Shown here: piece after piece, positions 10,807-23,649 of the stretch
Layout: every line of letters starts with the position of its first letter
How positions within the stretch are numbered: the stretch's first letter is position 1
Virus record (IMG/VR): IMGVR_UViG_3300042298_000870
Location: 1-33,892 of that record
Source of the DNA: a virus
Direction: 5' to 3' (one strand)
Length of the DNA stretch: 33,892 nucleotides
The notes under the pieces: model-generated
What the model saw: the letters and a program-made list of their open reading frames with translations, nothing else
Databases searched by the model: none
What the model was told of the DNA's origin: nothing
Program-made: the position numbers and the translations under genes

Positions 10807-11203
10807 TGGCAGAAATTGGCGTAAAAGAGCCTAATTCTGCCATTGTATTTAAGCAATTCCGCAAACTGCTGTTAGTGCCATTGTGTAAATCAATGAGCTG
10901 AAAAATATGCGATTTTATCGCTTTTGCTTCGGATGCGCGCCATTCAACGGGAATAATCACAGAGCTGCGACTTCTATCTGGTGCAATGCGAGTGAGCTGA
11001 CAGAAGCCTTCTGGGTTCAGTTTTGTAGGTCCAACACCGCGCACACTCCATCCACGGCCAAATTCGCGCTTGATTTGCAGACGTAAATCTTCAACCCAGT
11101 CTGCCGCTGACTCCACATTCTGCACGTCATACCAAGCCTCTACGACTGCGGCAATGGCATCGGGCAGTGTCACTCCTTCTAGCTCAATGCAGAATTTGCT
11201 CAT
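10796..11203 (-). CDS. Hypothetical protein between helicase and nuclease
   Basis: 135 residues from the ATG at 11203, which overlaps the helicase stop (ATGA); a longer start at 11218 is possible. The N-terminal part is helical (LPDAIAAVVEAWYDVQNVESAADWVEDLRLQIKREFG). The middle is strand-rich and basic (GRGWSVRGVGPTKLNPEGFCQLTR...SSVIIPVEW), and the C-terminus is helical. No family recognised. The GC content and codon ends are more AT-rich than in the neighbouring helicase, hinting at a separate acquisition. The position implies a role in DNA handling. Confidence 0.7.
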   Translation of the reverse strand: MSKFCIELEGVTLPDAIAAVVEAWYDVQNVESAADWVEDLRLQIKREFGRGWSVRGVGPTKLNPEGFCQLTRIAPDRSRSSVIIPVEWRASEAKAIKSHIFQLIDLHNGTNSSLRNCLNTMAELGSFTPISANVF

Positions 11204-12558
11204 TGCACCTTGCTCCATTGCCCTTTTGTTTGACGTGCGGCTAGGACGTGCTTAGCCCATGCGACTGGATTCTTGTATCCCCGCTCCTTGCCAAGTCGGA
11301 TGAGCTGATCCAGCGTCTGAGCGCCGCCCTGCTCGCGCCGCTTAGCCACTGCCAGCTCTTGCAGCTCCCCATCAACCTGCTGCAGCTCGCGGCGCTCTTG
11401 TGGTGCAAACACATGCCCGCACTCGCGGCATGACTGCACTGCACTGGCGCTAGTGGCGAAGCACTGCGGGCAGACCTTGACCGATGGCGCTGCCTCGCGG
11501 TCTCTGCGGGCAACCCCGTCTAGCGTCCAGTCCCGCGGCTCTAGATGGTGGCCAAGCCGCAGCGTGTTGCCCACGTGGTCGAGCACTACGGCGCGCTTGC
11601 CCAATTGCGGGCGCAGGCACCGACCAATCATCTGCAGGTGCAATGCCACCGATGCCGTAGGCCGCAGCAGGATGCAGCCGCCGACGCTTGGCACGTCCAC
11701 GCCTTCACCGATCAATGCGCAACTGGTGAGCACCTTGAGCCTCCCGGTGCCTAGGTCGCTGAGAAGCTCACGGCGCTGCGCGGCATCCATGCTGCCGTCG
11801 ATACTGGCCGCGGCGATGCCATTGCGCTGGAACAAGTCAGCCACTGCCTCCGCGTGCGCCACGGAGCAGCAGAAGGCAATCGCCGTTTGCCCTGGCAGGT
11901 GCTTGCGGTAGTGGCCAAGGCAATCACCCATGATCGTGCCGACGCGCTGCTCAGCCTCCTTGGGGTCGAAGTCACCCATCCGTTTGCGCAGTCCGGTTGA
12001 GTCAAACCCCGGCGGTGCCAGCACCTTGGCGCCAGCGAGGAAGCCGGCATCCGTGAGCTGCTGCGCTGTTGGCCCTTCCACCATGCACTGATAGTGCTCA
12101 CCAAGGCCGCGGCCATCGCTGCGTATCGGTGTTGCCGTGACGCCAAGCAGTTTGGCTTGCGAGAAGTGCTCGATGACCTTGGCCCATGTGCCGGCGCTGG
12201 TGTGGTGCGCTTCGTCCACCACCAAAAGCTGGAAGAAATCCCGTGGCAGCAAATGCAGCCGTCGGGCAAGCGTCTGCACACTGGCGACCTGCACCGTGCG
12301 GGATAGATCCATTGCCTTGCCGGCGCTGATGCGGCCATGCGGCACCGGCATGGCGCGGCTGGCTTGATCCAGCAGCTCTTGCCGGTGCACCAACACCAGC
12401 ACGCGGTTGCCCTTAATGCTGGCTTGCTGGGCGATGTAGCTAAAGCACACCGTCTTGCCGCCGCCGGTGGGCAGCACCGCTAGGACTGACTTGTGCCCTA
12501 GCTGGTACTGCAGGCGGATGTCGTTGATCAGTTGTTGCTGGTATGGGCGGAGTTGCAT
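11200..12558 (-). CDS. SF2 DEAD/DEAH-type helicase with zinc ribbon
   Basis: 452 residues from the ATG at 12558 (GTG at 12561 possible), coupled to the upstream gene by TGATG. Positions count from that GTG: the Q-like LRPYQQQ near residue 5, Walker A PTGGGKT at ~31-37, DEAH in VVDEAHH at ~116-119, GVTATPIRSDG (motif III), and RecA2 motifs including LTSCALIGEGVDVPSV and MIGRCLRP (motif VI). A C-terminal zinc ribbon (CPQC...CRECG) should contact DNA. It resembles SSL2/UvsW-like branch-migrating helicases, so recombination or fork restart is the likely job. Confidence 0.92.
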   Translation of the reverse strand: MQLRPYQQQLINDIRLQYQLGHKSVLAVLPTGGGKTVCFSYIAQQASIKGNRVLVLVHRQELLDQASRAMPVPHGRISAGKAMDLSRTVQVASVQTLARRLHLLPRDFFQLLVVDEAHHTSAGTWAKVIEHFSQAKLLGVTATPIRSDGRGLGEHYQCMVEGPTAQQLTDAGFLAGAKVLAPPGFDSTGLRKRMGDFDPKEAEQRVGTIMGDCLGHYRKHLPGQTAIAFCCSVAHAEAVADLFQRNGIAAASIDGSMDAAQRRELLSDLGTGRLKVLTSCALIGEGVDVPSVGGCILLRPTASVALHLQMIGRCLRPQLGKRAVVLDHVGNTLRLGHHLEPRDWTLDGVARRDREAAPSVKVCPQCFATSASAVQSCRECGHVFAPQERRELQQVDGELQELAVAKRREQGGAQTLDQLIRLGKERGYKNPVAWAKHVLAARQTKGQWSKVQ

Positions 12559-14816
12559 CACACCAGCACCCCCTGACGGTTGCTGACAACCTCAGTCAGG
12601 TTCTTGACTGCGCAGTTGAAATATGACGGCTTCAGCTCGAAGCCAACAAACTGGCGGCCGGCTTGGATGCTGCAGTAGCCCTCGCTGCCGATACCAGCGA
12701 ACGGGCTGAGCACCAGGTCGCCGGAATTGCTCCACAGTTGCAGGCCGCGGCGGATCACCTCAAGCTGCAGCGGGCAGATGTGGCGCTCATCCTCATTGGC
12801 GCGTGCGCTGCGATATTGCAGCGTGTCCGATGGGTTGATGTCCATCCATACGGGGCTGGCATAGCGCTGCCAGATGTTGATCGAGTCCTTGATCGGGTCA
12901 CCGCTTTTGGCTGGCGGGTTCTCACCGGCAAACTCCGTGAACGGACCGGCCACAGGCTCTGGGTTGTCACCCAGCTTGCGCACGGTCACCAGGTAGTCAG
13001 GGATGCCTTGGCGGCTGAGCGCTGAGTCCTTGCGCACTTGCTTATGCAGCAGGCCGATTGCCTTGGTGCGCTGCATGGCGGTGACTGGATCCTTCCAGAT
13101 GCACACCTCGCTATGGAAGACAAAACCAGCAGCCTGGAAGATGCGCAACATGTCGCCGCGGAAGTCCTTCACGCCGATGAAGCCATCGCGCTCCTTGCTG
13201 CTGGGCAAATTCATGCAGTGGAAGCTGATCAGCCGGCCGGGCATCATCACGCGGTGCAACTCGCTGGCAAGGAATCCAAAGTGATCGAAGAACTCCTGTT
13301 CAGTGCGGCTGTTGCCCATATCACGGTCGCTATTGCTGTAGGTGTAGAGCGACGCGAACGGTGGGCTGAAGATGCTGTAGTGGATGGAGTTGCTGTCGAG
13401 TTGCTTAATGCTCTCCACGCAGTCGCCCATATACATGTCCCAGCCGTCGCCGGACTTGTGCTCAGTAACATGCGGCGCCACTTGGCGTTGGATCTTTTTG
13501 AGTTGTTCCATGGTTTGTTGCTTCATGATTTCAACCATTGATTGAGCCATCTGGATGCTGTCCGCTTCCTTGCGGCGGATGTTGTCGATCACGCGGCCTT
13601 CTGCCACGTCGTAAATGATGTGAGCGTTGACCGGCTGCTCTTGACCGAATCGCCAGCAACGGCGGATGGCTTGATAGAACGCCTCATAGCTGTGCGACAG
13701 GCCAACAAATGCGACGTTGTGGCAGCGCTGGAAGTTGAGGCCAAAGCCAAAGATGCTGGGCTTGCTGACCAGTACTCGGATCTTGCCATCTTGAAAGTCG
13801 ATGGCAGATTGCCGCTTGTGGTCGTCGGTGTCGCTGCCTGATACCTCAACTGCGCCGTTAATCGCAGCAGTTAGCGCCTTGCTCTCGTCATTGAGATCAC
13901 ACCACACCAGCCATTGGTCGGTGTTGCTGTTGGCAAGCTTGGCAGCGGCTGCAACGCGGAGGGTGAGCGATGCCTTGCGCACCTTGCGCTGATCATTGAG
14001 CGTACGAGCCTCCATGGCAAACAACGCCATCTGGCCGTCGTCACCTGCTGTTGCCTCGCGCGGCGTCTCCACCGTGCAGTCTTGGATCTGCAGCGCCGGC
14101 AGCACGAAGTTGCCGTCCTCGTAGCCAAGGTCTGATGGCTTGCGGATGGTGACCGCCCAACTGCAGACCCACTCCCAGAACTTGTCCCGTGCGTGACCCT
14201 TGAGCCGCCACTTAGCAGTGTCGCCGCCGTCATGCACGAAGAACATGGCCAGCATCTCCGTGCGGGTCATGACACCAATGAACTCAGCATGGTTGCCAAG
14301 CTCCATGTGGTCATTGGGTGCTGGCGTTGCCGAACACGCCAGCCGGTATGGCGTCAGGCTGAATGACTCGATGATCTGGTTGCGGATCTTGCCGGTGTAT
14401 GCCTTGAGGATGCTGGACTCATCCAGCACCACGCCTTGGAAGCTGCCGGGATCAAAGTGGCTCAGCTTCTCGTAGTTGGTCACCGTGATGCCGGGCTTGA
14501 CCTCAGCTTGCGTGGCGGCGAACGAACATGGGATGCCGAACTTGCTGCCCTCACGCACGGTCTGATGCGCCACGGCAAGCGGTGCCAGCACCAGCACGTT
14601 GCCGCCGGTCTCTAAATGCACCTGATGCGCCCACTCGAGCTGCATGGCGGTTTTACCCATGCCGCAGTCGGCCCAGATGCAGAACTTGCCGACACGACAA
14701 GCCATGGTCACGATGTCCCGCTGAAACGGAAACAGCGGCGCGGTGAACTGCCGCGGGTCAAAGCCGGCAACAGGTGCTGCAGTGGATTTGGAGGCTAGGA
14801 AGTCTTGGTAGGTCAT
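12558..14816 (-). CDS. Fusion of SNF2-like helicase and DNA methyltransferase
   Basis: 752 residues. Residues ~25-435 are an SNF2/SF2 ATPase: ADCGMGKT (Walker A, 49-56), VVLDESS (Walker B-like, 130-135), SATPAPND (162-169), and YQAIRRCWRFGQ (motif VI, ~381-392). Residues ~455-745 are an amino-methyltransferase in beta-type order: MYMGDCVESIKQL, SPPF (catalytic motif IV, 484-487), target-recognition region, then FAGIGSEG (AdoMet site, 706-713) and FELKPSYF. SPPF favours N4-cytosine over N6-adenine methylation. No restriction nuclease accompanies it, so protection of phage DNA from host restriction, coupled to translocation, is the likely role. Confidence 0.92.
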   Translation of the reverse strand: MTYQDFLASKSTAAPVAGFDPRQFTAPLFPFQRDIVTMACRVGKFCIWADCGMGKTAMQLEWAHQVHLETGGNVLVLAPLAVAHQTVREGSKFGIPCSFAATQAEVKPGITVTNYEKLSHFDPGSFQGVVLDESSILKAYTGKIRNQIIESFSLTPYRLACSATPAPNDHMELGNHAEFIGVMTRTEMLAMFFVHDGGDTAKWRLKGHARDKFWEWVCSWAVTIRKPSDLGYEDGNFVLPALQIQDCTVETPREATAGDDGQMALFAMEARTLNDQRKVRKASLTLRVAAAAKLANSNTDQWLVWCDLNDESKALTAAINGAVEVSGSDTDDHKRQSAIDFQDGKIRVLVSKPSIFGFGLNFQRCHNVAFVGLSHSYEAFYQAIRRCWRFGQEQPVNAHIIYDVAEGRVIDNIRRKEADSIQMAQSMVEIMKQQTMEQLKKIQRQVAPHVTEHKSGDGWDMYMGDCVESIKQLDSNSIHYSIFSPPFASLYTYSNSDRDMGNSRTEQEFFDHFGFLASELHRVMMPGRLISFHCMNLPSSKERDGFIGVKDFRGDMLRIFQAAGFVFHSEVCIWKDPVTAMQRTKAIGLLHKQVRKDSALSRQGIPDYLVTVRKLGDNPEPVAGPFTEFAGENPPAKSGDPIKDSINIWQRYASPVWMDINPSDTLQYRSARANEDERHICPLQLEVIRRGLQLWSNSGDLVLSPFAGIGSEGYCSIQAGRQFVGFELKPSYFNCAVKNLTEVVSNRQGVLV

Positions 14817-15079: not shown

Positions 15080-15232
15080 GTGGCCCTGTCCCATCCGTTA
15101 TCAGTTCAGTTCACCCCAGAACAGATGGCTTGGCTGGATCGCCGTCGCGTCGCTGGCATATCCCGCAGCACGGTGCTCAGGCTGGTGGTTGAGGAGGCAA
15201 TGCGCCGCGAGCAGGAGCCGCAGCGCAAGTGA
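15080..15232 (+). CDS. Small RHH-like DNA-binding protein
   Basis: 50 residues with a GTG start: LSVQFTPEQMAWLDRRRVAGISRSTVLRLVVEEAMRREQ. A beta strand followed by two helices with the turn GISRSTVLR is the ribbon-helix-helix (CopG/Arc-like) pattern; such dimers bind operators. It sits 23 bp downstream of the overlapping divergent promoters, so autoregulation of that switch is plausible. Its stop overlaps the primase start (GTGA). Confidence 0.7.
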   Translation: MALSHPLSVQFTPEQMAWLDRRRVAGISRSTVLRLVVEEAMRREQEPQRK

Positions 15233-17601
15233 AAGAAATCGACTTTTCAGAAGCCCGCCGGTTCATCGCCTTACTCGGCAAACCGGCAGGAACCATCCGA
15301 CTCCGTGCTTTTCTCCACCGCCTACACCCAGACAAGCCCAACGACAAAGGCCGCAAAGGTGGTGCCCGCAAGCCGCTGATTAAGCAATGGCAAGCCGAAG
15401 GCCGCGGCGTTTACGTGGTCATCAACGACGGCGGCGACACCAACGCAGAGATCACAGCCTGCCGCGCCTTTTTTGCTGAATGGGATGATCGCCCGCGTGA
15501 ATGGCAGCTCACGGCATGGCAAGAGCTAGGGCTGCCGGAACCCACCTTCCAGATCAACACCGGCGGTAAATCCATCCACAGCTATTGGGTGCTAGCAGAC
15601 CCAATCACACCAGCCCATTGGGAGCTAGTGCAAAGGCGGTTGCTTGATTACTGCGATGCAGACCGCAGCATCAAGAACTCATCCCGCGTTATGCGGTTGC
15701 CTGGCAGCTACTACGCCGAAGCCGATGGCAGCCTTGGTGAGATGTGCCGCATGGTCACCAGCGCCGGCCATCGCTACAGCGTTGCCGACATTGAAGCGAT
15801 CCTGCCCAATGAGGCTTATTACCAGCACGAAAAACCTGCGCAGCACTACGTAGAACCTGCAGAGCGCGGCATTGATGAGATCCGCGAAGCGCTAGCCGCC
15901 ATACCGCCTCGCGTGCCAGGGTCCGGCACCTATCACATCTACCGCAATATCTTTTGGGGCTTGATCCAAGCCTGCGGCAGCACTGAGCAAGCCATCGACT
16001 TGATGCAGCAGCACAGCCCGCAATGGCAAGGGCTGCAGCAGATCGCTGCATCAGGTGGTGACCGCATCGGTGCCGGGACGTTTTGGTACTGGGCGCGGCA
16101 TCACGGTTGGCGGCCAGCACTGCCGATGCTTGCGCCGCAGCGTCAGCGCCTTGAACCCGCTGGCGATGGTGAAGCGGTCAACCTGCAGCTATACGACAAA
16201 TCCGGCACCGAATGGCTAGAGCTTGCCGTTGAGCATGTCTTCTGCCATCCACGGGAACGATGGATCTGCGTTGACGGCGTGCTGCACCTGTGGAATGGCA
16301 CGCACTACCAAGCCAAGCCAGACGAAGAGCTGGCGCCAAAACTCGCGGCATTTCTGTCCATGCTGCATGTCATCAACCAGCAAGGCGCTACCACATACCC
16401 ATGGCGCAGGCCACGATACGTGGATGAAGCGCTGCAATGGATGCGGCGACTGCTTAAGCCGGTTGAGGTAAACCCAGCCAATGCCATCAACTGCCGCAAT
16501 GGCGTAGTGGCGTGGGCATGGTCTGGTCGCAAGCTGGATCTGACCTTTACGCCGCACGATCCAGCGGTTGCCTTCACCTACGTCACCGCCTACGACTACG
16601 ACCCAGAAGCCAATGCCCAGCACCTATGGCGGTTGCTGGAAGCCGTAGAGCCTGGCGACCGTGACACGTTGCAGCGCATCCTCGGCAGCGGGCTTGACCT
16701 TATCAAATACCGCGCCACACGAGGCAGGCCGCGTGCTGTGTTGATGATCGGTGAGGGCAGCAACGGCAAGGACACCATCCGCACCGCACTGCGCGACACT
16801 CTCGGCAGTCGTAATTTCACGAGCTGCACGCTTGCTGATTTTCGTCAATACGACCAAGGCCGTAAGTTTCCCATTGCGCCATTACGTGGCGCCTCAGTGA
16901 ACTGGTCAAGCGAAAACTCGCAGTTCGTCAGTATTGACAACCTCCAGTCATTGAAGGCTGCCATCAGTGGCGAGGAACTGTCATATGAACTCAAGGGCGT
17001 ACAGGAATCGCAGTTTGTTCCGTCGTCTTTGTTTGTGTTCAACCTCAACAAGGATCCATCCCTAACTGGTGAGCAGGCTGCTATTGAGACACGGTTTCAC
17101 GTGTTTAAGTTCCGCAAGACCTTCATGGCGACACCTACTGAACCCAACCACCTGCAAGCTGACCCGAAGCTCAAGGACGACCCTGGCTTCATTCAGCAGC
17201 AGATATGCCCTGCATTCCTGAATTGGCTGCTTGAAGGGATGGCGCTAAGCATTGCAGATGGCATTGATTACACAACTGGAAGCCAAGCAATGCAAGACGT
17301 TAGAAGAGCCAGCTGCCATCTTTGGGACTTCTGTGACTCTATCGGACTGACCTATGAAGAGGGCGCTCAGGTATCAACCAAGCGGGTATGGGATGCCTTG
17401 CAAGAGTGGTATCGAGAAGAGGGGTATTTGGACGATAAAGGTAGGTGGTTAACGGATCCGCCAAGTGACCGCACCGTCAAGGCACCCAGGCTTCTGGTGC
17501 CGGCATTGCGCCAGATCTTCCCAAAACTTGCGTCCGACAGAGGCTCCGGTAAGTCCCGTGAGCGTCTCATCTCGGGTCTCAAGCTGGATTTGTGGTCGTG
17601 A
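15229..17601 (+). CDS. Primase-helicase (AEP-like primase plus SF3-type helicase)
   Basis: 790 residues with a GTG start coupled to the previous gene (GTGA). The N-terminal ~200 residues look like an archaeo-eukaryotic primase/RepB-like domain: FFAEWDD (acidic pair ~84-87), NTGGKSIHSYWVL (Ser115, His117) and SSRVMRLPGSYY. The C-terminal half is a D5/P4-type SF3 helicase: AVLMIGEGSNGKDT (Walker A, ~508-515), SSENSQFVSIDN (sensor region), and SLFVFNLNKDPSLTGEQ before the arginine region. It probably recognises and unwinds the origin immediately downstream and primes synthesis. No DNA polymerase gene is in the window, so the host polymerase is probably used with the phage clamp. Confidence 0.9.
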   Translation: MKEIDFSEARRFIALLGKPAGTIRLRAFLHRLHPDKPNDKGRKGGARKPLIKQWQAEGRGVYVVINDGGDTNAEITACRAFFAEWDDRPREWQLTAWQELGLPEPTFQINTGGKSIHSYWVLADPITPAHWELVQRRLLDYCDADRSIKNSSRVMRLPGSYYAEADGSLGEMCRMVTSAGHRYSVADIEAILPNEAYYQHEKPAQHYVEPAERGIDEIREALAAIPPRVPGSGTYHIYRNIFWGLIQACGSTEQAIDLMQQHSPQWQGLQQIAASGGDRIGAGTFWYWARHHGWRPALPMLAPQRQRLEPAGDGEAVNLQLYDKSGTEWLELAVEHVFCHPRERWICVDGVLHLWNGTHYQAKPDEELAPKLAAFLSMLHVINQQGATTYPWRRPRYVDEALQWMRRLLKPVEVNPANAINCRNGVVAWAWSGRKLDLTFTPHDPAVAFTYVTAYDYDPEANAQHLWRLLEAVEPGDRDTLQRILGSGLDLIKYRATRGRPRAVLMIGEGSNGKDTIRTALRDTLGSRNFTSCTLADFRQYDQGRKFPIAPLRGASVNWSSENSQFVSIDNLQSLKAAISGEELSYELKGVQESQFVPSSLFVFNLNKDPSLTGEQAAIETRFHVFKFRKTFMATPTEPNHLQADPKLKDDPGFIQQQICPAFLNWLLEGMALSIADGIDYTTGSQAMQDVRRASCHLWDFCDSIGLTYEEGAQVSTKRVWDALQEWYREEGYLDDKGRWLTDPPSDRTVKAPRLLVPALRQIFPKLASDRGSGKSRERLISGLKLDLWS

Positions 17602-17603
17602 TG

Positions 17604-17624
17604 TCGGACGCAACTTGCGTCCGG
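17604..17624. repeat. Near-perfect palindrome of two abutting iterons
   Basis: A reverse iteron (17604-17613) and a forward iteron (17615-17624, one mismatch) face each other with one base between, forming a hairpin-capable palindrome just after the primase-helicase stop. It could also act as a terminator or dimeric binding site. Confidence 0.65.
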
Positions 17625-17649
17625 GTCGGACGCAAATCGGACGCAAATT

Positions 17650-17888
17650 TCGGACGCAAAAACCCAGTCCCTATCTACCTTTTCTCTTGTTCGGACGCAA
17701 ACAGGGGTAAATCAAGTCAGGTATGGAAACAGGAGGGGGAATGTAACGGCGTGAACAAAACACACATATAGGGGGGGGTAAGGAGAAAACCCGATTTTGC
17801 GTCCTCCCTTGGTATGACTGGGTTTTTTGCGTCCGACTTGCGTCCGCTTGCGTCCGAACCCAGTCGTGGACAGGGTTTTTGCGTCCGA
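17650..17888. repeat. Long inverted repeats framing the origin core
   Basis: The 21 bases at 17650-17670 (iteron plus AAACCCAGTCC) match the reverse complement of 17868-17888 at 20 of 21 positions. They also match the reverse complement of 17817-17836 with a single extra A. The two right arms enclose further iterons. The arrangement could form a large stem or position an initiator symmetrically. Confidence 0.7.
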
Positions 17889-17919
17889 CCTACCATTTGC
17901 ACCATCATCACCACCAGAA

Positions 17920-18201
17920 ATGCCCGAAATCAAGATCAATGTCACCGGTGACGACCTGGCGCGGTTGAACGCCGAAGCAGCGGCGCATGGCATCCCGCGT
18001 GCGCACCTGATCCGGCAGCGTGCTTTGAGTGGTGGGGTTGTTGCAGGATTGACCACGGCGGCGTACCATGCGTTGGTGGCGGACGCCTGCGCCTTCATGC
18101 GTGGTGACCTGAACCGCCGTCACGTTGAAACTCTCGTTGCATATGTCATCGCTCATTCACATTCCAGCCAAGCAACAGCCGGTGATCAATCGGCTGCATG
18201 A
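17920..18201 (+). CDS. RHH-like DNA-binding protein beside the origin
   Basis: 93 residues from the ATG at 17920 (a longer frame from 17827 would run through iterons). The N-terminus EIKINVTGDDLARLNAEAAAHGIPRAHLIRQRAL fits a ribbon-helix-helix domain: one strand, helix A and helix B with a turn at HGIPRA. The rest is helical (TTAAYHALVADACAFMRGDLNRRHVETLVAYVIAHS) and could mediate oligomerisation. Located 31 bp from the last iteron, it is a good candidate for the iteron-binding initiator or copy-control protein. That is inference from position and fold only. Confidence 0.7.
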   Translation: MPEIKINVTGDDLARLNAEAAAHGIPRAHLIRQRALSGGVVAGLTTAAYHALVADACAFMRGDLNRRHVETLVAYVIAHSHSSQATAGDQSAA

Positions 18202-18352
18202 GACCATGACCCAGGCAGTGGCGTACGCCGCAGCCATTGCCGACAACGCCATTGATGACGGCGTACCGCTACCCATGGAACTCGTGGATAGCTTCGCCGC
18301 TGATTACGAACGCATCATCACCAGCCTTGTCACTGCCGCCACCGTCAAATGA
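18143..18352 (+). CDS. Small hypothetical protein
   Basis: 69 residues from the ATG at 18143, overlapping the previous gene by 59 bp; a shorter reading from 18206 (48 residues) avoids the overlap. It is helical and Ala-rich (MTQAVAYAAAIADNAIDDGVPLPMELVDSFAADYERIITSL). The stop overlaps the sliding-clamp ATG by 4 bp, so it is probably coupled. No family recognised. Confidence 0.5.
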   Translation: MSSLIHIPAKQQPVINRLHETMTQAVAYAAAIADNAIDDGVPLPMELVDSFAADYERIITSLVTAATVK

Positions 18353-19389
18353 AAGCTGTCACCTGCCAAGCCGATCTCGATCACGCATTGCGCACCATTG
18401 CGCCAGCCGTTGGCCATCGCAGCAGCCATCCGATCCTTGATTGCTGCCTGATCCAAGCCGCTGGTGGTGTCATGACCATCACCGGCTTCAACCTTGACCT
18501 CGGCATCACCGTCACCATCCCAGCCGCAGTGGACACCGATGGCGCTGTAGCGCTGCCGTATCGGCTGCTGGCTGGCCTTGTAAGCCGCTTTGATGGCGAT
18601 GAGGCTCTGACCCTCGCAGATGGCGCTCTGACGGCTTCTGCGGGCTCCTACGGGCTTGCAGCGGCTGATGCGGCGGATTACCCCGCGCTGCCGGTTGTGG
18701 ACGCTGCTACGAGCGAGTTGCACCTATCCGCCGGCATCCGCGCCTGCATGGCAGCCGCCAGCACTGATGCCAGCAAGCAGATGCTCCAAGGCATCCACCT
18801 CGGCAGCGGCCACATGGAAGCTACCGATGGGCATCGCCTGATGCGCTATGCCATTGACCTGCCAGATGGTTTAGACCTGGTACTACCGGCCAGTACCATG
18901 CGCCTGCTGCAGGATCGCGTGGTCACCATCGCTGTTGCCAAAGGGCAAGCCGTGATCGACGCAGGTGATGGCATCACTATCTACAGCCGCATCATGGATG
19001 GCACATACCCAGACGTGGCCAAGCTGCTACCTACTGAATTCAAAAGCACCATCACAGCTGATCGCCGCCGCTTGACCCGCGCACTGGAGCGTGTTGCCAT
19101 CATTGCCGATGCGCACAACTCCATCGTCAAGATCGAGGCAGCAGGTGGCACCATCGCCATCACTGCCGAGTCAGACGCCAACAACGGCAAGGAGCTGCTC
19201 AAGGTGGAAGGCACCGCTAATGGCGCATGGGCGTTCAACGTCCACTACCTGCTAGACGGCATCAAGGCATTTAAGCCCGCAGAAGCCATCACCCTGCACG
19301 CCAATACGGCAACCACACCAGTGGTGCTAACACCCAGTGGCGTAGATGGTGTAACGTATCTTGTAATGCCTGTGCAGGTTAGAAGCTAG
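18349..19389 (+). CDS. dnaN: DNA polymerase III beta-type sliding clamp
   Basis: 346 residues, slightly shorter than bacterial DnaN (about 365-390). All three clamp repeats are recognisable: domain 1 begins CQADLDHALRTIAPAVGHRSSHPILDCCLI. Domain 2 includes HLSAGIRACMAAASTDASKQMLQGIHL and MEATDGHRLMRYAI. Domain 3 includes ITADRRRLTRALERVAIIADAHNSIVKIEA, and the C-terminal strand VTYLVMPVQVRS matches the bacterial YLIMPMRL end. It would tether a polymerase to DNA. With no polymerase gene visible, the phage clamp probably captures host polymerase III. Phages with their own bacterial-type clamp are a minority. Confidence 0.93.
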   Translation: MKAVTCQADLDHALRTIAPAVGHRSSHPILDCCLIQAAGGVMTITGFNLDLGITVTIPAAVDTDGAVALPYRLLAGLVSRFDGDEALTLADGALTASAGSYGLAAADAADYPALPVVDAATSELHLSAGIRACMAAASTDASKQMLQGIHLGSGHMEATDGHRLMRYAIDLPDGLDLVLPASTMRLLQDRVVTIAVAKGQAVIDAGDGITIYSRIMDGTYPDVAKLLPTEFKSTITADRRRLTRALERVAIIADAHNSIVKIEAAGGTIAITAESDANNGKELLKVEGTANGAWAFNVHYLLDGIKAFKPAEAITLHANTATTPVVLTPSGVDGVTYLVMPVQVRS

Positions 19390-19398
19390 CATTTATGT

Positions 19399-19746
19399 AT
19401 GGCCAGATCTAAGACCAAAGACAAAACTCACTACACTCACGAAGAGCTGTTGTGCATTTGGTCGGAACTGGCCGAGATCATTGCTGCTGGTAATAATCAG
19501 ATCTCCATCCCCAAGCTCATCATTGAAAAATGGGGGGTGTGCCGCCCTACTGCCGACAAGTGGTACGACTGCGCCAAACAACTGCTGTACCAGACCTGGG
19601 ATCAATCAACCTTGGCTGAAATGAAAGCCAAGCGTTTGCAAACGCTGGAGATGACAATCGAACGCGGAATGCGGACTAACCAGTTAGGTTCAGTGATTGG
19701 CGCAGTCAGGCTGCAGGCTGAAATGCTTGGACTTGTTGGCAAGTGA
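19399..19746 (+). CDS. terS: Terminase small subunit (putative)
   Basis: 115 residues immediately upstream of the terminase large subunit and overlapping it (GTGA). An N-terminal helix-turn-helix-like region (HEELLCIWSELAEIIAAGNNQISIPKLIIEKWGVCRPTADKWYDCA) is followed by a helical oligomerisation region (STLAEMKAKRLQTLEMTIERGMRTNQLGSVIGAVRLQAEMLGL). TerS proteins bind the packaging site and regulate TerL. The assignment rests on fold pattern and gene order. The packaging type (cos or pac) cannot be told from it. Confidence 0.8.
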   Translation: MARSKTKDKTHYTHEELLCIWSELAEIIAAGNNQISIPKLIIEKWGVCRPTADKWYDCAKQLLYQTWDQSTLAEMKAKRLQTLEMTIERGMRTNQLGSVIGAVRLQAEMLGLVGK

Positions 19747-22203: not shown

Positions 22204-23649
22204 ATGTACACCGGCTTTAATAACTACGACCGGCCGATTGCGCAGCGCCGCGTTACTCGCGTGCAGGATGCCAATACGGCGTGGTATGCACAAGAGGCGC
22301 ATTGGATCCTGATTGAAGATCTGCTGCAAGGCACCTATGGGATGCGTCGTAAGCATCGCCGGTATCTGCCGCAAGAACCACGTGAGCTTGACGAGTCCTA
22401 CGACAACCGCCTAGCGCGTAGCGTATGCCCGCCGTATTACCAACGCCTTGAGCGGATGCTGGCTGGCATGTTGACGCGCAAGCCCGTAAGGCTTGATGAC
22501 ACTGCTGACATCATCCGTGAGCAGTTGTTTGATGTTGACCTGCAAGGCAATGACCTCAACGTCTGGACCTATGAAACGACCCGCAAGATGGTCCGCTATG
22601 GCCACGTTGGTGTACTGGTGGATGCACCTGCTGATGGGGGTCGACCCTATTGGGTGAGCTACACACCACGACAGATCCTTGGCTGGCGCGCAGAGCAGCA
22701 GGAAGGCCGGCAGGTGCTCACGCAACTGCGACTTGCCGAAATGGTCACCGTGCCTGATGGTGAGTTCGGCGAGAAGGCGGTGGAGCAGATCCGTGTGCTC
22801 ACGCCAGGTGAATTTCAACTGCATCAGAAACAAGACAACGGCGAGTTTCAAGTTGTCGACGAAGGCCGCACAAGCCTTAGCGAGATTCCATTCAGCGTTG
22901 CCTATGCGCAGCGTCATGCGTTTATGGAATCCCGTCCACCGCTGGAGGATATCGCTGAGCTGAACCTGAAGGCATATCAAATCCAGAGCGACCTTGATAA
23001 CCAGCTCCACATCAGCGCTGTGCCGATGCTGGCCTTTTATGGCTTCCCGTCTGCGGCAGAGGAGGTCAGCGCTGGACCGGGTGAGGCCATCGCATTCCCC
23101 GCTGATGGCCGCGCTGAATACATCGAACCCGCTGGCCGCAGCTTTGATTATCAGTTTCGCAGGCTTGAGCAGCTTGCACTGCAAATCAACGAGCTTGGCT
23201 TGTCCGCTGTGCTTGGCCAGAAGCTATCGGCGGAAACCGCTGAAGCAAAACGGATCGATCGCAGTCAAGGCGACAGCACCATGATGGTGATTGCGCAAAA
23301 CGTGCAGGACATGATCGACAACTGCCTGCAGTTTCATGCGCAATACATCGGCAACAACACATCACCTGGCAGCAGCTATGTCAACCGCGACTTTCTCGGC
23401 ACACGACTTGAGCCGCAGGAAATCCAATCGCTGCTGCAGCTTTACACCGCAGGCACCATCACGCAGGAAACGTTGCTGCGGGAGCTTGCCGAAGGCGACG
23501 TGCTAGGCGACGACTTTAACGTAGATGAGGAGCTTGAAGCTACGGCCAATGCGGGGCTTGATCTACAACCTGCTGGACTGGGTGACCGACCGCTTAGTGG
23601 ACCTGATGATCTGGATGGAACCGAAAAAACCCAGGAGACAGGAGCTTGA
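22204..23649 (+). CDS. Portal protein (DUF4055 type)
   Basis: 481 residues. The sequence matches the DUF4055 portal type: RLARSVCPPYYQRLERMLAGMLTRKPV near residue 80, EDIAELNLKAYQIQSDLDNQLHISAVPMLAFYGFP in the middle and SAVLGQKLSAETAEAKRIDRSQGDSTMMVIAQNVQDMIDN before a C-terminal variable region. It forms the dodecameric DNA channel. The C-terminal ~35 residues are polar and overlap another frame (23549-23869). Confidence 0.92.
   Translation: MYTGFNNYDRPIAQRRVTRVQDANTAWYAQEAHWILIEDLLQGTYGMRRKHRRYLPQEPRELDESYDNRLARSVCPPYYQRLERMLAGMLTRKPVRLDDTADIIREQLFDVDLQGNDLNVWTYETTRKMVRYGHVGVLVDAPADGGRPYWVSYTPRQILGWRAEQQEGRQVLTQLRLAEMVTVPDGEFGEKAVEQIRVLTPGEFQLHQKQDNGEFQVVDEGRTSLSEIPFSVAYAQRHAFMESRPPLEDIAELNLKAYQIQSDLDNQLHISAVPMLAFYGFPSAAEEVSAGPGEAIAFPADGRAEYIEPAGRSFDYQFRRLEQLALQINELGLSAVLGQKLSAETAEAKRIDRSQGDSTMMVIAQNVQDMIDNCLQFHAQYIGNNTSPGSSYVNRDFLGTRLEPQEIQSLLQLYTAGTITQETLLRELAEGDVLGDDFNVDEELEATANAGLDLQPAGLGDRPLSGPDDLDGTEKTQETGA

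Follow-up and report, generated by a model that had tools for sequence, protein, structure and literature searches.

A conserved iteron array directly behind the primase-helicase gene as the probable replication origin of a cyanophage family

Background

What does a dense array of short repeats do at the end of a viral primase-helicase gene, and which protein reads it? The original prediction took the array to be a candidate iteron origin tied to this gene. We have followed this up in the window, meaning the whole 33.9-kb stretch of DNA that was analysed, and in its relatives, and we consider it likely that the array is a replication origin read by the predicted C-terminal winged-helix domain of the adjacent primase-helicase.

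The window covers part of the genome of a siphovirus-like phage with relatives among the Synechococcus phages; its portal is 80% identical to that of Cyanophage KBS-S-2A and 75% to that of Synechococcus phage S-H1, and the best match of its beta clamp is found in S-H1 (40%). The host is probably a picocyanobacterium. No relatives were found in bacterial genomes, hence no prophage and no direct host, and a nucleotide search of the replication region against annotated phages gave no match. The primase-helicase gene is followed (3') by a small RHH/NikA-like gene, a beta clamp, TerL, and portal, capsid and tail genes. DNA polymerase A was detected neither in the window nor in 12 related records. 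The genes needed below are:

15229-17601, plus strand: PrimPol (AEP), D5_N/DUF5906 SF3 helicase and predicted C-terminal winged helix in one protein of 790 aa, the proposed initiator
17920-18201, plus strand: small RHH/NikA-like gene, a neighbour only (NikA-like E 1.3e-3, RHH_1 E 0.15, both below the cut-off)
18349-19389, plus strand: DNA polymerase III beta clamp with Pfam beta-clamp domains, present in 10 of 13 records

Two further observations concern the rest of the window. A 752-aa protein at 12558-14816 on the minus strand has helicase domains followed by an N6_N4 methyltransferase domain and adjoins a second helicase gene (11200-12561), and the hexamer GCAGGA occurs about 17 times at the contig end (33793-33892), probably within a tail gene cut by that end.

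Anatomy of the repeat array

Twelve copies of TTGCGTCCGA, nine of them exact, had been described at the end of and just after the primase-helicase gene, and we confirmed both counts and positions: nine exact copies, two with one mismatch and one with two lie within 361 bp (17528-17888).

17528-17537, plus strand: iteron 1, exact, in the coding sequence (codons 767-770)
17604-17613, minus strand: iteron 2, exact
17615-17624, plus strand: iteron 3, one mismatch (TTGCGTCCGG), odd orientation kept in relatives
17626-17635, minus strand: iteron 4, exact
17637-17646, minus strand: iteron 5, exact
17650-17659, minus strand: iteron 6, exact, long type with GACTGGGTTTT extension
17691-17700, minus strand: iteron 7, exact
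17701-17796, no strand: repeat-free core of 96 bp, 73% purine on the plus strand, 48% GC (window 56%), boxes conserved in alignment
17797-17806, plus strand: iteron 8, two mismatches (TTGCGTCCTC)
17827-17836, plus strand: iteron 9, exact, long type
17838-17847, plus strand: iteron 10, one mismatch (TTGCGTCCGC)
17848-17857, plus strand: iteron 11, exact
17879-17888, plus strand: iteron 12, exact, long type

No exact TTGCGTCCGA was found in the rest of the window. From base composition 0.0008 exact copies are expected per 361 bp and 0.07 in the whole window, and in 40 dinucleotide shuffles no 10-mer clustered more than three times per 400 bp. Copies with up to two mismatches number 31 in the whole window, which is the chance level, so the weight lies on the clustering of exact copies.

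The mirrored arrangement that had been proposed is found as well, with five reverse and one forward non-coding copies to the left of the core and five forward copies to the right (Fisher p = 0.015), and this layout recurs in relatives. The spacings are 11, 11, 11, 13 and 41 bp on one side and 30, 11, 10 and 31 bp on the other, with a best common period of 10.6 bp. Several iterons have the GACTGGGTTTT extension in common. The core is purine-rich and free of copies, with its G8 run at 17771-17778, and is framed by two inverted repeats of 21 nt with 95% complementarity each, all in line with the original prediction. A promoter and terminator scan of the array region was near chance and gave no clear pattern. 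One check that had been suggested, cumulative GC skew, did not single out the array: in the window and five relatives there is no turning point at this place and the extremes lie elsewhere. In small genomes whose genes are strand-biased, however, GC skew says little for or against an origin.

Conservation of the array in related phages

Relatives were fetched by protein alone, giving 78 viral loci and thereafter further distant ones. A repeat array was found 3' of the gene in all 66 examined loci with sequence there and in 18 of the second set; as many fetched loci are near-copies, the informative number is about 25-30 sequences. The search for the 10-mer and its layout in related phages, which had been named earlier as a check, places the array at the same position in every relative examined with sequence there. 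The core 9-mer forms one cluster in each of 16 related records, the exception being one stray copy in one record. This single place per record, always 3' of the gene, upholds the link between the candidate origin and the primase-helicase gene.

The geometry is conserved too. Counted in bp from the stop codon, the class A grid (repeat classes are described below) has copies at about 6 (reverse), 16 (forward), 27, 38, 51 and 92 (all reverse), then the core, then 197, 227, 238, 248 and 279 (all forward). Genes as little as 59% identical still have nearly this grid, and where an iteron is lost the length of its slot is kept (22 bp in L025, 21 bp in L020). The loci L070-L073 were considered as relatives without iterons and rejected as such: this iteron is lacking, but relatives of the group carry other repeat clusters at that place, so they are not evidence of absence.

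The neighbouring genes are less constant; the absences given here are absences beside the array, and the genes may still be present elsewhere in the genome. If the iterons were operators or a centromere for the RHH/NikA-like protein, serving transcription control or partition and not replication, this gene would be expected close by. As noted earlier, 31 bp separate the last copy from its start at 17920. It is present in 55 of 69 loci, and its RHH nature is indicated by weak NikA-like and RHH profile matches. An RHH partition centromere would have the RHH gene always adjacent to the repeats, but it is absent beside intact arrays in 14 of the 69 loci, in several lineages (L015/L016, L048/L051/L067, L052-L056, L101, L081/L087/L113/L125). 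Nor does the RHH tree follow the repeat class (seven changes against a minimum of two), and the promoter and terminator scan gave no clear pattern. We therefore find it unlikely that the iterons serve this protein, and the earlier suggestion that it might bind the sites is not supported in the sense of a necessary binder.

The clamp gene is likewise absent in 3 of 13 records that have primase-helicase and array. TerL, at 19743, begins only 2 kb downstream of the array and could bring to mind a packaging (pac/cos) site read by the terminase. This seems extremely improbable, as the array always follows the primase-helicase; both are present in G012-G015 and G019, where no relative of the window TerL was found, and in G008, where TerL is 33% identical to that of the window. 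The absences of RHH-like gene, clamp and TerL beside arrays argue against the operator, centromere and packaging readings, and since the array stays when these genes are absent or of a different family, we conclude that it belongs to the primase-helicase.

Some features of the fetched contigs are worth recording. In the G011/L069 contig the terminase and primase-helicase frames are broken by an in-frame TGA and split into pieces (G011 17590-18914, L069 6001-8373), from either sequencing errors or decay. The records behind L007 and L060 (42-43 kb) have terminal direct overlaps of 127 and 112 bp and are probably complete genomes.

The primase-helicase and its C-terminal domain

In the 790-aa protein the D5_N and DUF5906 domains scored over the cut-off. 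Residues 11-193 at the N-terminus match the solved AEP domain of the S-2L PrimPol (E 5e-38), and residues 57-294 share 42% identity with the PrimPol part of Cyanophage S-2L. The helicase part gave a weak profile match to the solved DNA primase 7ola (E 0.009), and its SF3 core was poorly modelled by structure prediction. The part of most interest here is

17209-17598, plus strand: C-terminal domain, residues 661-790, predicted winged helix and proposed iteron reader

A solved-structure search by sequence with the C-terminal profile returned nothing meaningful. The AlphaFold model of the domain, of moderate quality (mean pLDDT 75), has the element order H-E-H-H-E-E and aligns with the RFX winged helix (Z 9.7, 76 residues, 2.1 A) and with the C-terminus of AsfvPrimPol, another primase-helicase (Z 6.7). 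As the Foldseek E-values for this model are weak (0.04), the fold call is based on the second aligner and the element order. From this we predict that the domain is a winged helix, RFX-like and also AsfvPrimPol-like; a shared fold alone shows no function.

Repeat classes and the initiator

The repeats of the relatives fall into five classes, mostly uniform among the copies of one phage. Class A, that of the window, is TTGCGTCCGA with a loose tenth base; class B is TTGCGTCCGCC (...CGCC), with C as tenth base in nearly all copies; class D is TTGCGTCCGCA (...CGCA), though not in all copies; class C is TTTGCCTTCG and class E TTGCCTCCG. The class C and E proteins are 59-67% identical to that of the window.

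On the C-terminal tree, which is weakly supported, repeat class changes five times (minimum four), and on the N-terminal tree six times. The L046/L047 phages are mosaic: the N-terminal part of their protein falls within class A (100/100), but their iterons are class B, and the C-terminal part groups with a class B row (88/81). Their RHH gene is class-A-like, which again speaks against the RHH protein as reader of the repeats. The C-terminal domain is enriched in columns that distinguish classes A/B from C (18/130 vs 27/660, p 8e-5). Residue 759, for example, which lies in the helix preceding the wing, is A throughout classes A, B and D and K/R throughout C and E. It seems as if the repeats and the DNA-binding end of the initiator change together, lock-and-key style, across dozens of relatives. 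Co-inheritance of neighbours would explain part of the agreement between class and protein, hence we take it as support and not as proof.

An iteron within the coding sequence

The first iteron was predicted to act as an origin element inside the helicase gene, and we do find constraint at the DNA level on this coding copy. Codons 768-769 read GCG TCC in each of 19 class A/B genes, and the codon of residue 767 (L/V/I) ends in TT throughout, making xTT GCG TCC invariant. Among 204 invariant degenerate columns only four are codon-invariant, and the coding iteron holds two of these, which indicates that here the DNA sequence itself is conserved. Class C lacks the coding copy and class E does not have it at that place, so it is not essential to the principle.

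Codon 770 contains the tenth base of the iteron, the very base that distinguishes repeat classes A and B. Residue 770 is D/E in class A and A in class B, the sole column to separate the two besides a one-residue length difference at 773. Site and reader might then overlap in the DNA: residues 767-770, which lie in the predicted wing, are specified by the coding iteron, and one mutation would alter both origin site and recognition surface. Class D has C as tenth base in most non-coding copies, yet E at residue 770 and A in the coding copy, so the link is not strict, and we regard the idea as doubtful. If true, new origin specificities that are incompatible with one another could arise by a route built into the gene.

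The core and its boxes

Within and next to the core three elements stand out:

17743-17757, plus strand: core box GTAACGGCGTGAACA, family consensus GTAACGGGGTGAACA, aligned across relatives
17767-17782, plus strand: core box with the G8 run, TATAGGGGGGGGTAAG, kept as TATAGGGGGGGATAAGG in most relatives
17807-17823, plus strand: CCCTTGGTATGACTGGG motif, common to phages with unrelated initiators

The box GTAACGGGGTGAACA is missing in L040/L045. In the 45-kb genome of S-2L one exact GTAAC[AG]GGGTGA is found, at 23220 in the gap 3' of its PrimPol; as this box was first spotted by eye and searched for afterwards, the match has limited weight. GTGA is a primase recognition motif of NrS-1 polymerase (PMC8718748).

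This raises the question of whether the repeats are single-stranded template sites at which the N-terminal PrimPol primes, and not duplex sites of the C-terminal domain. AEP PrimPols do have template motifs, NrS-1 polymerase recognising TTTGGTTA or GTG (PMC8718748), and the core box with its GTGA is common to S-2L. But S-2L, with its 42% identical PrimPol part, has no such iterons 3' of its gene, phages sharing the PrimPol part only have other repeats, and L046/L047 combine a class-A-like N-terminal part with class B iterons. Priming at the iterons is thus quite unlikely, and this explanation fits the core box better than the iterons. The S-2L match suggests an association of the core box with the PrimPol part and of the iterons with the C-terminal part.

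As a separate observation, CCCTTG[GC]TA[TC][GA]ACT[GA]GG recurs in the origin regions of cyanophages whose initiators are unrelated, S-H1 and L254/L256; in L254/L256 it lies 3' of the gene, and in L190 at 9708. We considered CCCTTGsTAyrACTrGG as a host motif and rejected it, as 81 matches in 257 Gb are about the chance expectation.

Relation to known replication systems

In satellite phage P4 the C-terminal part of the alpha protein, a primase-helicase, recognises 10-bp iterons at two sites, ori1 and crr. By description the present system is similar, joining a primase-helicase, 10-bp iterons and a proposed C-terminal reader. Unlike P4 with its ori1 and crr, the window and the 16 related records have a single cluster each, and the iteron is another one.

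SaPI Rep, a self-loading initiator helicase, binds iterons directly downstream of its own gene via its C-terminal domain, and so does Cch2 of SCCmec; Rep is thought to bind as two hexamers, and in SaPI5 it joins primase and helicase (PMC7581432). The cyanophage shares with these an AAA+/SF3 helicase initiator encoded by the element and short iterons directly downstream (12 copies, gene end at 17601). At the place of the SaPI iteron-binding domain a winged helix is predicted, and repeat class follows this C-terminal part, if with weak tree support. Unlike SaPIs, this is a lineage of tailed phages that has terminase, portal, capsid and tail genes of its own and for which no chromosomal relatives were found; it has an S-2L-type PrimPol, a different iteron, one iteron in the gene and five natural repeat classes. 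The replicon would work like the SaPI type but is not a SaPI/PICI.

In pRN1 (ORF904) and phage BIP-1 an AEP-SF3-winged-helix protein is followed 3' of its gene by an origin that is a stem-loop of about 100 nt without iterons (PMC4234260). Here, too, AEP PrimPol, SF3 helicase and predicted winged helix are joined in one protein and the array lies 3' of the gene; unlike that stem-loop origin, the cyanophage has an array of phased iterons whose putative recognition sequence is conserved. One could imagine that the array is one large cruciform, recognised by its structure instead of its repeat sequence as proposed for pRN1/BIP-1, given that the left iterons can pair with the right ones to form a long stem (folding z -6.7) and that pRN1 needs the stem-loop 3' of orf904 (PMC4234260). 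Any mirrored array pairs trivially, however, and the z value follows from the mirrored iterons; the repeat sequence is uniform per phage and changes as a class, the spacing tracks the helical turn of duplex DNA, and the relatives L257 and L259 have nearly all copies in one orientation. Recognition of a cruciform is accordingly very improbable, and we keep to the iterons as duplex sites of the initiator. The cyanophage family joins two known types, a pRN1-like protein and a SaPI-like iteron origin.

Cyanophage S-2L (PMC8065100) has a homologous PrimPol domain and the core box 3' of its gene, but its helicase part differs and it lacks TTGCGTCCG-type iterons. In L254-L261, PrimPol parts 53-55% identical to that of the window are fused to other helicase types, and several of them have repeat clusters of their own directly 3' of the gene, AGGTTGGACA in L257-L260 and GTGTAACGGT/ACCGTTAC in L254/L256. 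S-H1, with an unrelated primase, has CCGTTCGG-type repeats at the same place.

The original prediction knew of no described phage origin with this 10-mer. That holds for the origin literature searched, where TTGCGTCCGA was not found and the matches listed were unrelated, whereas the arrangement as such has been described for SaPIs (PMC7581432) and, in a stem-loop version, for pRN1/BIP-1 (PMC4234260).

A model of initiation and its implications

We propose that protomers of the primase-helicase would occupy the iterons, which are in helical phase, to the left and right of the purine-rich core. By analogy with SaPI and SV40-type initiators, the mirrored orientation would load two SF3 hexamers face to face, and these would melt the core. 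The N-terminal PrimPol could then prime synthesis, with the conserved core box as a possible site, and the phage-encoded beta clamp, a likely partner at the fork, would pass the fork to a polymerase. Replication would by this scheme start in both directions.

The array is very probably where this cyanobacterial virus starts copying its DNA. Origins of siphovirus-type cyanophages appear largely uncharted; in the literature searched, iterons and cyanophage occur together only for a Vibrio satellite. As a practical rule, in PrimPol phages one should look for a repeat cluster or a conserved box directly 3' of the primase-helicase gene. The family also offers an unusually clean series of natural specificities: with five classes of paired proteins and sites, recognition of the origin by an AEP-SF3-winged-helix initiator becomes testable by swaps.
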